From positions 1 to 64,000 of the forward strand of contig NZ_VUNH01000001.1 of NCBI RefSeq assembly GCF_009695745.1: a stretch of DNA of 64,000 bases, written 5' to 3'. The translations under genes and the position numbers were made by a program. Under the pieces are notes generated by a model. It worked only from the letters and a program-made list of their open reading frames with translations, was not told where the DNA came from and did not search any database. Numbering within the stretch: the stretch's first letter is position 1; every line of letters starts with the position of its first letter. Shown here in pieces: positions 54,226-57,895 of this stretch. The stretch comes from Pyramidobacter porci (GTDB lineage: Bacteria; Synergistota; Synergistia; Synergistales; Dethiosulfovibrionaceae).

Positions 54226-54242
54226 CTTGACTATATTTGACC
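54226..54242 (-). promoter_or_regulatory. CtsR operator
   Basis: On the minus strand the sequence reads GGTCAAATATAGTCAAG, matching the CtsR consensus of tandem RGTCAAA units three bases apart with one deviation at the last base. It fully covers the -35 element of the ctsR promoter, so bound CtsR would block transcription. Confidence 0.85.
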
Positions 54243-54255
54243 AATGCGCTACAAT
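54227..54255 (+). promoter_or_regulatory. Predicted promoter of ctsR-clpC
   Basis: TTGACT and TACAAT lie 17 bases apart, 39 bases before the ctsR ATG and overlapping the CtsR operator. Confidence 0.8.
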
Positions 54256-54293: not shown

Positions 54294-54791
54294 ATGAGCA
54301 GTTTGACCGAGGTCATTGAAAGCTATATCAACGAACTTTTCGAGCGGGAAGAGCAGGGCAGCGCCGCCGACGCCGAACGCGTTTCGCTGCGCCGCAAAGA
54401 CGTGGCGGAACGCTTCGGCTGCGTCCCCAGCCAGATCAACTACGTGCTGAGGAGCCGCTTCACGCCCGAACGCGGCTATATCGTCGAGAGCCAGCGCGGC
54501 GGTCACGGCTACATCCGCATCATGAAGATCAGTTACGACATACCCGAAGAACGCGCCCGGCACATCGTCAAGATCGTCGGCGATTCCATCTCCGAAGCCG
54601 ACGCCAGGCGCCTGCTGTGCTCGCTTCAGGCCCGCGGGATGATCAACGCCCGCGAGCGCCTGCTGATCGAGATTTCGCTGCGCCATATCGGCGAACTCTG
54701 CGATAGTATGTTCGACGTGTCTCCCTACAAGAAAAGCTTGCTGGCGGCCGAGATGCTCAAAAAAATGCTTTGCGGCCTCGATTTGGCCTAA
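54294..54791 (+). CDS. ctsR: Heat-shock repressor CtsR
   Basis: CtsR represses clp and other protein-quality genes until heat inactivates it. The 165-residue protein opens SSLTEVIESYINELF, has the winged helix VAERFGCVPSQINYVLRSRF and the wing RGGHGYIRIMK (about residues 67-77). In Bacillus the wing is a tetraglycine heat sensor; here the third Gly is His while the Arg is kept. The C-terminal dimer domain follows (PYKKSLLAAEMLKKML). AACGGAGG precedes the ATG. clpC follows after about 40 bases, with no mcsA or mcsB between. Confidence 0.93.
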   Translation: MSSLTEVIESYINELFEREEQGSAADAERVSLRRKDVAERFGCVPSQINYVLRSRFTPERGYIVESQRGGHGYIRIMKISYDIPEERARHIVKIVGDSISEADARRLLCSLQARGMINARERLLIEISLRHIGELCDSMFDVSPYKKSLLAAEMLKKMLCGLDLA

Positions 54792-54830
54792 GAGTTGAGA
54801 GTTACCCAAACGATCAAGGAGGGGAGTGCC

Positions 54831-57155
54831 TTGTGGCAATTTTTTACGGAGCGAAGCAAACGCGTGATCCAGATCGCGCATCGTGAGGCACTGCGCCTCG
54901 GACACGCTTTTATCGGCACGGAACATCTGATGATCGGCCTGATCGCCGAAGATTCGTCGGTGGCGGCGCTGGCTTTGAAAGAAGCCGGACTGGCCGCCGA
55001 AGACGTGGCGCGCGAGATTCTTGCCCTGCGCCCGCCGGCGGCGCCGTACGCGCAGCCCGTCGACCTGCCGCTCTCGGACCGGGCCCGCGGCGCGTTGAAC
55101 GCGGCCATCCATCTGGCCCGCGAGTTCCATTCAAGTTATGTCGGCACCGAACACCTGCTGCTTGGCGTGTTGTCCGCGCCGGAGTGCACAGCCTGCCATG
55201 CCCTGGCAGAGTTGGGGCTCGACACGGAAAATCTGCGCGTCAGCCTGAAAAAACAGTTGCTGGCGCAGTCCAGCCGTCAGGACGCGGAGAATGAAAAAGA
55301 GGGCGGCGACGCCCGCCCGGCGGCGGATGCCAAAACGCCGACGCTGGATAAGTACTGCGTCGACCTGACGGCCAAAGCCGCTAGAGGCGAACTCGATCCG
55401 CTGATCGGCCGCGAGCAGGAAACGCACCGCATGATGCAGATCCTCTGCCGCCGCCGCAAGAACAATCCCGTTCTGGTCGGCGACCCCGGCGTGGGCAAAA
55501 CCGCGATCGTGGAAGGGCTGGCCTACAAGATCCAAAAAGGTTCCGCGCCCTCGCTGCTCAAGGGCAAGCGCGTCGTGGAGCTGACGATGGGAACGCTCGT
55601 GGCCGGCACCAAATACCGCGGCGAGTTCGAAGACCGCATGAAGAAGATCGTCGACGAACTGACCGCCGCCAAGAACGTGATCCTCTTCATCGACGAGCTG
55701 CATACCGTCGTCGGCGCGGGCAGCGCCGAAGGATCGCTGGACGCGGCCAACATCCTCAAACCCAGCCTGGCCCGCGGCGAGTTCCAGGTCATCGGTGCGA
55801 CGACGCGCGACGAGTACACGAAAAACATCGAAAAAGACGCGGCGCTGGAGCGCCGTTTCCAGCCCGTGGCGGTCGGCGAACCCGATCAGGACGCGGCGCT
55901 GGCGATCCTGCAGGGATTGAAGGAAAGCTACGAGAAGCATCACAGCGTGCACTACACCGAAGGCGCGCTGGAAGCCGCCGTGCGCCTGTCCAGCCGCTAT
56001 CTGTCCGACCGCAGTTTGCCCGACAAGGCCATCGACCTGATCGACGAGGCCGGCGCGAAAGTGCGCCTCGACCTTGACGGACAGCAGATCCCCGAAGGGC
56101 TGACCGTCGACGAGGAAGAGATCGCCGGCGTGCTTTCCGAGTGGAGCGGCATTCCCGTCAAGACACTGACTGAGCACGAAGCCCAGCGCCTGCTGCGCCT
56201 CGAGTCGGAGATCCATCAGCGCTTGGTCGGCCAGGACGAAGCGGTGAGCGCGCTCTGCCGCGCCGTGCGCCGTTCGCGCAGCGGCCTGAAAGACCCGCGC
56301 CGCCCCGTGGGCAGTTTTTTGTTCCTCGGCCCCAGCGGCGTCGGCAAGACCGAGCTGGCCCGCTGCCTGGCGCGATCTCTGTTCGGCAGCGAGAAAGCCC
56401 TGCTGGCCTTTGACATGAGCGAGTACATGGAGCGCCACGAGGCCGCCAAACTGATCGGCGCGCCCCCGGGCTACGTAGGCTACGACGAGGAAGGCCGCCT
56501 CACCGAGGCCGTGCGCCGTCATCCCTGGTCGGTTGTGCTGTTCGACGAGATCGAAAAGGCCAATCCCGACGTGTTCAACCTGCTGCTGCAAATCCTCGAA
56601 GAGGGGCGGCTCACCGACGCGCACGGACGCACGGTCGATTTCAAAAATACCGTCGTCATCATGACCAGCAATCTCGGCGTGCGCGAGACGGCGAAGGCCG
56701 GACTCGGCTTTTCCGCCTCCGCGGAAGCGGAGAAGAAAAAACAATCGGAAGCGGTCCTCGGCGCCGTGAAGGAATTTTTCCGTCCCGAGTTCCTCAACCG
56801 CGTGGACGCGCAGCTCGTCTTCCATCCGCTGAGCGCCGAAGAGATGGCGCGCGTGTTCGACATCATGATGTTCGACCTGCGCGCGCGCCTCGGCGAGCAC
56901 GGCGTCATCCTCTCCATGTCGAAGGACGCGCGGGAGTTTCTGCTCAAGGCCGCGGCGGTCCAGAATCAGGGGGCCCGGCCGCTGCGCCGCCTGATCCAGA
57001 CGAAGATCGAAGACCCCCTGTCGGACCTGATCCTGTCCGGCGAGGTGCCTGACGGCTCTACGGTGGACTGCGTCCTCGACGGCGAAGCGCTCGCGTTCAG
57101 CGCGCGCCCGCCGCGCCGCCGCGCCAGACGGGAGCTGGCTGCTGTTTCCGAGTAA
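54831..57155 (+). CDS. clpC: AAA+ unfoldase ClpC without the usual middle domain
   Basis: ClpC unfolds proteins and feeds them to ClpP. The 774 residues have a duplicated N-domain ([12 protein letters not shown] and [13 protein letters not shown]), AAA-1 with GDPGVGKTA near 217, and AAA-2 with GPSGVGKTE near 499. A ClpP-docking tripeptide LGF lies after MTSNLG. Between DEAGAKVRL and [10 protein letters not shown] (about 405-426) only some 14 residues remain, where ClpC normally holds a UVR coiled-coil of about 50-60 residues, so the protein is nearer ClpA in architecture. Start is a TTG with AAGGAGGGG upstream. It is cotranscribed with ctsR. Confidence 0.92.
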
Positions 57156-57232: not shown

Positions 57233-57895
57233 ATGGAATTGAAAGACTGTTTCCCGTTTTGGGAGCGGCTGACGGCGGCCGAGCGGTCGGAGCTGGAAGC
57301 GGCGGCGCTCGTCCGCGGCGTCGAGGCGGGGGTGCCGCTCCATACCGGTTCGGCCGACTGCGACGGCCTGATTGCCGTCATGGACGGACAGATCCGCGCC
57401 TTTATCCTCTCTCCGGAAGGACGCGAGCTGACTCTGCACCGCCTCGTTCCCGGCGACATCTGCCTGTTTTCGGCGACCTGCGCCGTGCCGGGACTTCGTT
57501 TCGACGTCAGCGTCGAGGCGGAAAAAAACTCGCTGCTGTGGGTGCTCCCGCCGGCGGCATGCAAGCGTCTGGTGGCGCGGTCGCTGGTCTTCGCGAATTT
57601 CATCGGCGAGGTCGCGGCCTCCCATCTGTCCGATATCCTCTGGCTGGTCGAACAGGTGCTGTGGAAAAGTTTTGACGCCCGTCTGGCGGAATTTTTGCTG
57701 GAAGAGAGCGAGCTGGAAGGGACGGGGAAGCTGAAGATCACTCACGAGAAGATCGCCGCCCATCTGGGCACGGCCCGCGAAGTGGTGACGAGGATGCTGC
57801 GCTACTTCCAGGACGAGGGCATGGTGCGGCTTTCCCGTGGCTGCATCGAGCTGCTTGCGCCGGACAAAATGGCGCGGCTGACGGCAAAAAAATGA
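57233..57895 (+). CDS. Crp/Fnr-family transcription regulator
   Basis: The 220-residue protein has a cyclic-nucleotide-like sensor domain (about 1-130, with LHRLVPGDICLFSATCAVPG) and a C-terminal helix-turn-helix (ITHEKIAAHLGTAREVVTRM then LRYFQDEGMVRLSRG, about residues 165-200). Cysteines are few and do not form an Fnr-type N-terminal cluster, so the signal is unknown. The protein lacks the cAMP-binding arginine/serine pattern. GAAGGAAGG precedes the ATG. It stands alone between terminators. Confidence 0.87.
   Translation: MELKDCFPFWERLTAAERSELEAAALVRGVEAGVPLHTGSADCDGLIAVMDGQIRAFILSPEGRELTLHRLVPGDICLFSATCAVPGLRFDVSVEAEKNSLLWVLPPAACKRLVARSLVFANFIGEVAASHLSDILWLVEQVLWKSFDARLAEFLLEESELEGTGKLKITHEKIAAHLGTAREVVTRMLRYFQDEGMVRLSRGCIELLAPDKMARLTAKK

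Follow-up and report, generated by a model that had tools for sequence, protein, structure and literature searches.

The closest described systems are the ClpC unfoldases of Bacillus subtilis and Staphylococcus aureus, in which a UVR coiled coil, the middle domain or M-domain, lies between the two AAA+ domains D1 and D2. In S. aureus, the N-domain stabilises a resting state of ClpC via contacts with the D1 and M-domains (PMC12583610), deletion of the M-domain gives full activity without adaptors, and F436A, a mutant altered in the M-domain, assembles into hexamers and proves toxic to both E. coli and B. subtilis (PMC5699869; PMC12583610). As such activated mutants kill these hosts, repression through the M-domain is regarded as vital. 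CtsR acts as an intrinsic heat sensor (PMC5506225, PMC6305308), and in the lactic acid bacteria, the known CtsR organisms deficient in McsA and McsB, this intrinsic sensing takes part in control together with ClpE or ClpL (PMC6305308; PMC5506225). No description of a natural ClpC lacking the M-domain was found in a literature search outside which most subscription papers fell.

We analysed a stretch of 64,000 nucleotides from Pyramidobacter porci (the window), a member of the phylum Synergistota and the family Dethiosulfovibrionaceae, in which clpC lies directly downstream of ctsR. The features of the locus are the following.

54226 to 54242, minus strand: predicted CtsR operator, GGTCAAATATAGTCAAG, differing from GGTCAAANANNGTCAAA at one position and lying 52-68 bp upstream of ctsR
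54227 to 54255, plus strand: sigma-70-like promoter, TTGACT - 17 bp - TACAAT, inferred by reading the sequence and overlapped by the operator
54294 to 54791, plus strand: ctsR, heat-shock repressor of 165 aa (Pfam CtsR, 7e-31; CtsR_C, 5e-12)
54831 to 57155, plus strand: clpC without M-domain, 774 aa (Pfam, phmmer against PDB, linker measurement, dN/dS)
54831 to 55265, plus strand: ClpC N-terminal domain, two Clp_N repeats (Pfam), with Glu31 and Glu107 retained
55344 to 56051, plus strand: D1 AAA+ domain and lid, about residues 172-407 (Pfam, motifs, structure model)
56052 to 56147, plus strand: D1-D2 linker of 32 residues (408-439); most Synergistota ClpC have 86 residues here, with the UVR coiled coil
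56172 to 57068, plus strand: D2 AAA+ domain and D2-small, about residues 448-746 (Pfam), with the ClpP-docking loop LGF near residue 625

The clpC gene begins with a TTG codon, shared across the four genomes of the genus (the window genome and its congeners), and is preceded by the Shine-Dalgarno sequence AAGGAGGGG at 54816-54824. Downstream of it, after 77 bp and on the same strand, a Crp/Fnr-family regulator is encoded (57233-57895), which might be co-transcribed. The CtsR of the genus carries an insertion of about six residues before the winged-helix region when compared with most relatives. A change in its glycine loop was considered as a special adaptation and discarded, as the motif GGHG is found across the phylum.

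The initial annotation had described a ClpC whose UVR coiled coil is cut to a short linker, at a locus from which the adaptor genes between ctsR and clpC are missing, and both observations were confirmed. The end of ctsR is separated from clpC by 39 bp that contain no gene. The protein shows the Pfam order of two Clp_N repeats, AAA D1, lid, AAA_2 D2 and D2-small, and in the phmmer comparison with ClpC from the PDB its residues 2-414 match residues 3-405 of the B. subtilis protein and residues 416-753 match 464-801, in such a way that around 58 M-domain residues of the latter find no counterpart. Taken as the stretch between the end of the D1 lid motif and the start of D2, the linker is 32 aa long in the window protein and in congeners G002, G004 and G005. 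In the set measured first, each of the 51 other Synergistota ClpC has 86 aa here, and proteobacterial ClpA has 27-29 aa. The linker of the window protein gives no UVR match. The M-domain is thus absent in all four genomes of the genus in which clpC was found; two more genomes (G001 and G003, 82-83% complete) yielded no ClpC and are uninformative. An AlphaFold2 model shows the end of a helix (396-414), a short loop and a second helix (428-439), with no coiled coil between the two helices, although its mean pLDDT of 78.6 and pTM of 0.50 leave the placement of the domains uncertain. The solved structures nearest to this model are ClpC chains. Walker A and B motifs, pore loops, arginine finger, sensor 2 and the LGF loop for ClpP are all intact, and the glutamates at the phosphoarginine-site positions, Glu31 and Glu107, are kept. 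The double Clp_N, D1, D2 and the ClpP-docking loop of a ClpC are therefore all present but no UVR coiled coil separates D1 from D2, for which reason we call the protein an M-less ClpC ortholog and not a standard ClpC.

With a linker of 32 residues, close to the length found in ClpA, and an end-to-end alignment with the NCBIfam ClpA model, the protein could be a ClpA, acquired or mis-named, in which the lack of an M-domain would be normal. Nevertheless, the curated ClpA model scored 791 bits against a cut-off of 993, and in a tree built on the N-domain, D1 and D2 and leaving out the linker, the protein fell within the Synergistota ClpC (SH-aLRT 99) and far from ClpA. The gene also lies downstream of ctsR as in its relatives, an orthologous locus, and the genome has no ClpS. 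Tree, model score and synteny lead us to reject this identity as very improbable. The nearest neighbour of the window protein in the same tree is that of G007, a member of the same family, although this branch is long, which makes the pairing less certain than the clade as a whole. The ClpC of G007 (locus L175) retains its M-domain; it shows very rapid evolution, and neither phosphoarginine-site glutamate survives in it (E31 to A, E107 to S).

A domain could also go missing if a dispensable gene decayed or was wrongly assembled, and long ClpC branches are indeed found in both genera that lack it (the second is described below). Against this, the linker has the same length of 32 aa in four genomes, all motifs are intact, and the dN/dS ratios among these genomes are 0.05-0.08 in five congener pairs and 0.115 in the closest pair, values which point to purifying selection on the clpC of the genus. 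Four genomes and these ratios make an assembly error or a pseudogene even less credible than the ClpA identity, and we rejected it too. Tree, synteny, dN/dS and intact motifs together support a ClpC ortholog that selection still maintains after the loss of its M-domain.

The whole genome was then searched for partners. No McsB was detected, either by profile search or with the McsB of a relative as a protein query. In the family search for McsB and CtsR, a control genome labelled Bacillus subtilis gave no match for either, although this species has both; the absence of McsB was therefore rechecked with the relative's protein, and in this search the positive control was recovered. MecA and ClpS were found in none of the 61 Synergistota genomes searched, including that of the window. 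Only two ORFs carry UVR motifs, and their lengths of 710 and 567 aa fit UvrB and UvrC; from this we conclude that McsA is absent and reject a relocation of the M-domain to another protein. No second ClpC, ClpE or ClpL was found, the only matches being the window clpC and a single ClpB-like gene with a linker of 150 aa. There is a single ClpP gene, followed by a ClpX-sized AAA+ ORF. Neither the kinase McsB nor McsA of the arginine-phosphorylation branch is thus encoded, and as MecA, ClpS and an M-bearing ClpC are missing as well, any control of ClpC here must operate without the known adaptors.

The search of the genome for mcsA, mcsB, mecA and clpS that the initial annotation had called for thus returned none of the four, nor did we find the genes that could have contradicted it (mcsA, mcsB or mecA elsewhere, or a ClpC copy with an intact M-domain). 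The simplified circuit that it proposed, without arginine phosphorylation or the usual adaptors, stands as far as these absences go; what does not stand is the missing mcsA/mcsB as something special to this ClpC, as McsB gave no match in 87 of the 116 high-quality Synergistota genomes and a match in 29. Over all 188 genomes, McsB matched in 55; of the 61 searched for CtsR, 56 have it. In several families of the phylum ctsR adjoins clpC with neither mcsA nor mcsB, and the M-domain region of 86 residues and its aromatic tip residue are kept; so it is in a sister genus (g2) of the same family as the window, where mcsAB is gone and the M-domain remains. Since most lineages without mcsAB retain the M-domain, the two losses are separate steps, and in the genus of the window the M-domain was probably lost after mcsA and mcsB had already left the family. 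The unusual feature is the M-domain loss itself, on top of that of mcsAB, and apparently it happened twice.

Other states of the mcs genes were observed in the phylum. At eight loci of family f4 (L184, L186, L187, L190, L191, L251, L252 and L253) mcsA lies between ctsR and clpC with no mcsB match there, an McsA without kinase, and in L195 and L196 (family f6, genus g8) mcsA is cut to its N-terminal zinc-finger part, with around 53 matched residues and no mcsB. In G157-G177 (f4, genera g49-g53) the McsB profile matches have E values of about 1e-16 to 1e-32, much weaker than the 1e-50 to 1e-70 obtained in the rest of the phylum, a difference that suggests a divergent form of the kinase.

The same survey bears on a further explanation, that an adaptor particular to this lineage and so far unrecognised replaces McsB or MecA by binding to the N-domain. 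MecA and ClpS are absent from the Synergistota searched and McsB is often missing, yet the M-domain is mostly kept, so another activator probably exists in the genera concerned. However, the interval between ctsR and clpC holds no candidate gene, and an activator acting on the M-domain would have no binding target in an M-less ClpC. For the window genus we regard such an adaptor as improbable.

A scan of the 188 genomes for a single unbroken match across the linker returned six only, the four of the window genus and two others, G152 and G153, of a genus (g46) from another family (f4). Their ClpC linker also has 32 residues, ctsR abuts clpC with no mcsA between them at the locus, and the genome profile search gave no McsB match. 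Their ClpC groups with the ClpC of f4 with a support of 100, and the CtsR encoded next to it shows FAPENGF, a segment typical of that family. Forcing the two M-less groups together lowered the log-likelihood by 35, with an AU p value of 0.061 for ClpC alone; for this reason the independence of the losses rests also on the grouping of the genomes and on the neighbouring CtsR sequence. Two losses are thus favoured over one, and the M-domain loss looks convergent. Its pairing with the loss of both mcs genes amounts to two events, too few for a statistical link. Outside Synergistota, the survey for M-less ClpC beside ctsR covered 80 loci. Streptococcal ClpC at L038 and L040, beside ctsR, have shortened linker regions of 62 and 67 residues, and two Bacteroidota MAG loci (L035:8001-10229 and L045:8001-10286) encode ClpA/ClpC-like proteins whose linkers have 33 and 22 residues, with no CtsR match at either locus; the two Bacteroidota proteins could possibly be a further M-less group.

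Regarding transcription, the operator GGTCAAATATAGTCAAG overlies the TTGACT-17-TACAAT promoter and no other site in the 2.5 Mb genome matches the 16-base core without mismatches. Core matches with up to two mismatches numbered 24 and 19, against 18 and 17 for a reversed-pattern control, and most of the other matches look like chance given these similar counts. Many Synergistota loci have boxes of the same orientation, in most cases 59-78 bp upstream of ctsR. A CtsR family protein and, by sequence match, an operator at its own promoter are thus both present, which points to an autorepressed ctsR-clpC operon, perhaps the whole CtsR regulon. CtsR and ClpC may work here as a circuit of their own.

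The explanation that we favour, and find rather likely, is an orthologous and functional ClpC that, without M-domain, would assemble by itself, need no adaptor and be held mainly by CtsR autorepression. The absence of the M-domain predicts the loss of adaptor-dependent activation from a resting state: no head-to-head resting state would form, and the protein would assemble hexamers with ATP unaided, like ClpA or the engineered delta-M ClpC, and feed the single ClpP without adaptor. Its activity would be limited by the amount made, through CtsR autorepression of the operon, and by substrate choice via the N-domain, instead of by adaptor-gated activation, and heat would release CtsR through intrinsic sensing, as in other species, instead of through arginine phosphorylation. 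The broader statement, that the M-domain was lost at least twice, each time only with mcsA and mcsB gone, giving a constitutively active ClpC mainly repressed by CtsR, is put forward more tentatively, at slightly less than even confidence.

As engineered M-domain mutants are toxic, something must compensate in the window genus, and an otherwise toxic unlatched ClpC may be tolerated because less of it is made, because its motor is tamer or because the N-domain inhibits it. Such inhibition could remain, given the role of the N-domain in the S. aureus resting state and the conservation of Glu31 and Glu107. Taken further, repression would persist without the M-domain, with an N-domain-D1 contact or another oligomer interface providing an inactive state that substrate releases. 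The resting-state contacts known in S. aureus (PMC12583610) and the two phosphoarginine-site glutamates, conserved though McsB is absent, speak for it; Glu31, however, is conserved in ClpA too and is weak evidence, and S. aureus ClpC becomes active when only its M-domain is mutated or deleted (PMC5699869). We judge this unlikely, if less so than a lineage-specific adaptor, and retain the unlatched, CtsR-repressed ClpC as the preferred reading.

This ClpC shares with its Firmicute counterparts from B. subtilis and S. aureus the N-D1-D2 order (about 47% identity by structure alignment), the gene position beside ctsR, the CtsR operator and the ClpP-docking loop, and differs from them in lacking the M-domain, in a genome without McsA, McsB and MecA. 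With proteobacterial ClpA it shares the short D1-D2 linker and the absence of a coiled coil, whereas it belongs to a different clade and lies beside ctsR in a genome without ClpS. The lactic acid bacteria deficient in mcsAB (Oenococcus, Lactococcus) also have a CtsR operating without McsA/McsB, but ClpE or ClpL, neither of them found in the window genome, take part in CtsR control there. Loss of M-domain function is common to the window protein and to the engineered S. aureus delta-M and F436A variants (PMC5699869), with the difference that the former is natural, selected and tolerated by the cell, whereas F436A is toxic (PMC5699869). A natural M-less ClpC beside close relatives that bear the M-domain thus offers a direct comparison for the tolerance of an unlatched unfoldase and for the purpose of the M-domain once McsA and McsB are gone, as well as a minimal CtsR-ClpC-ClpP circuit for reconstitution.
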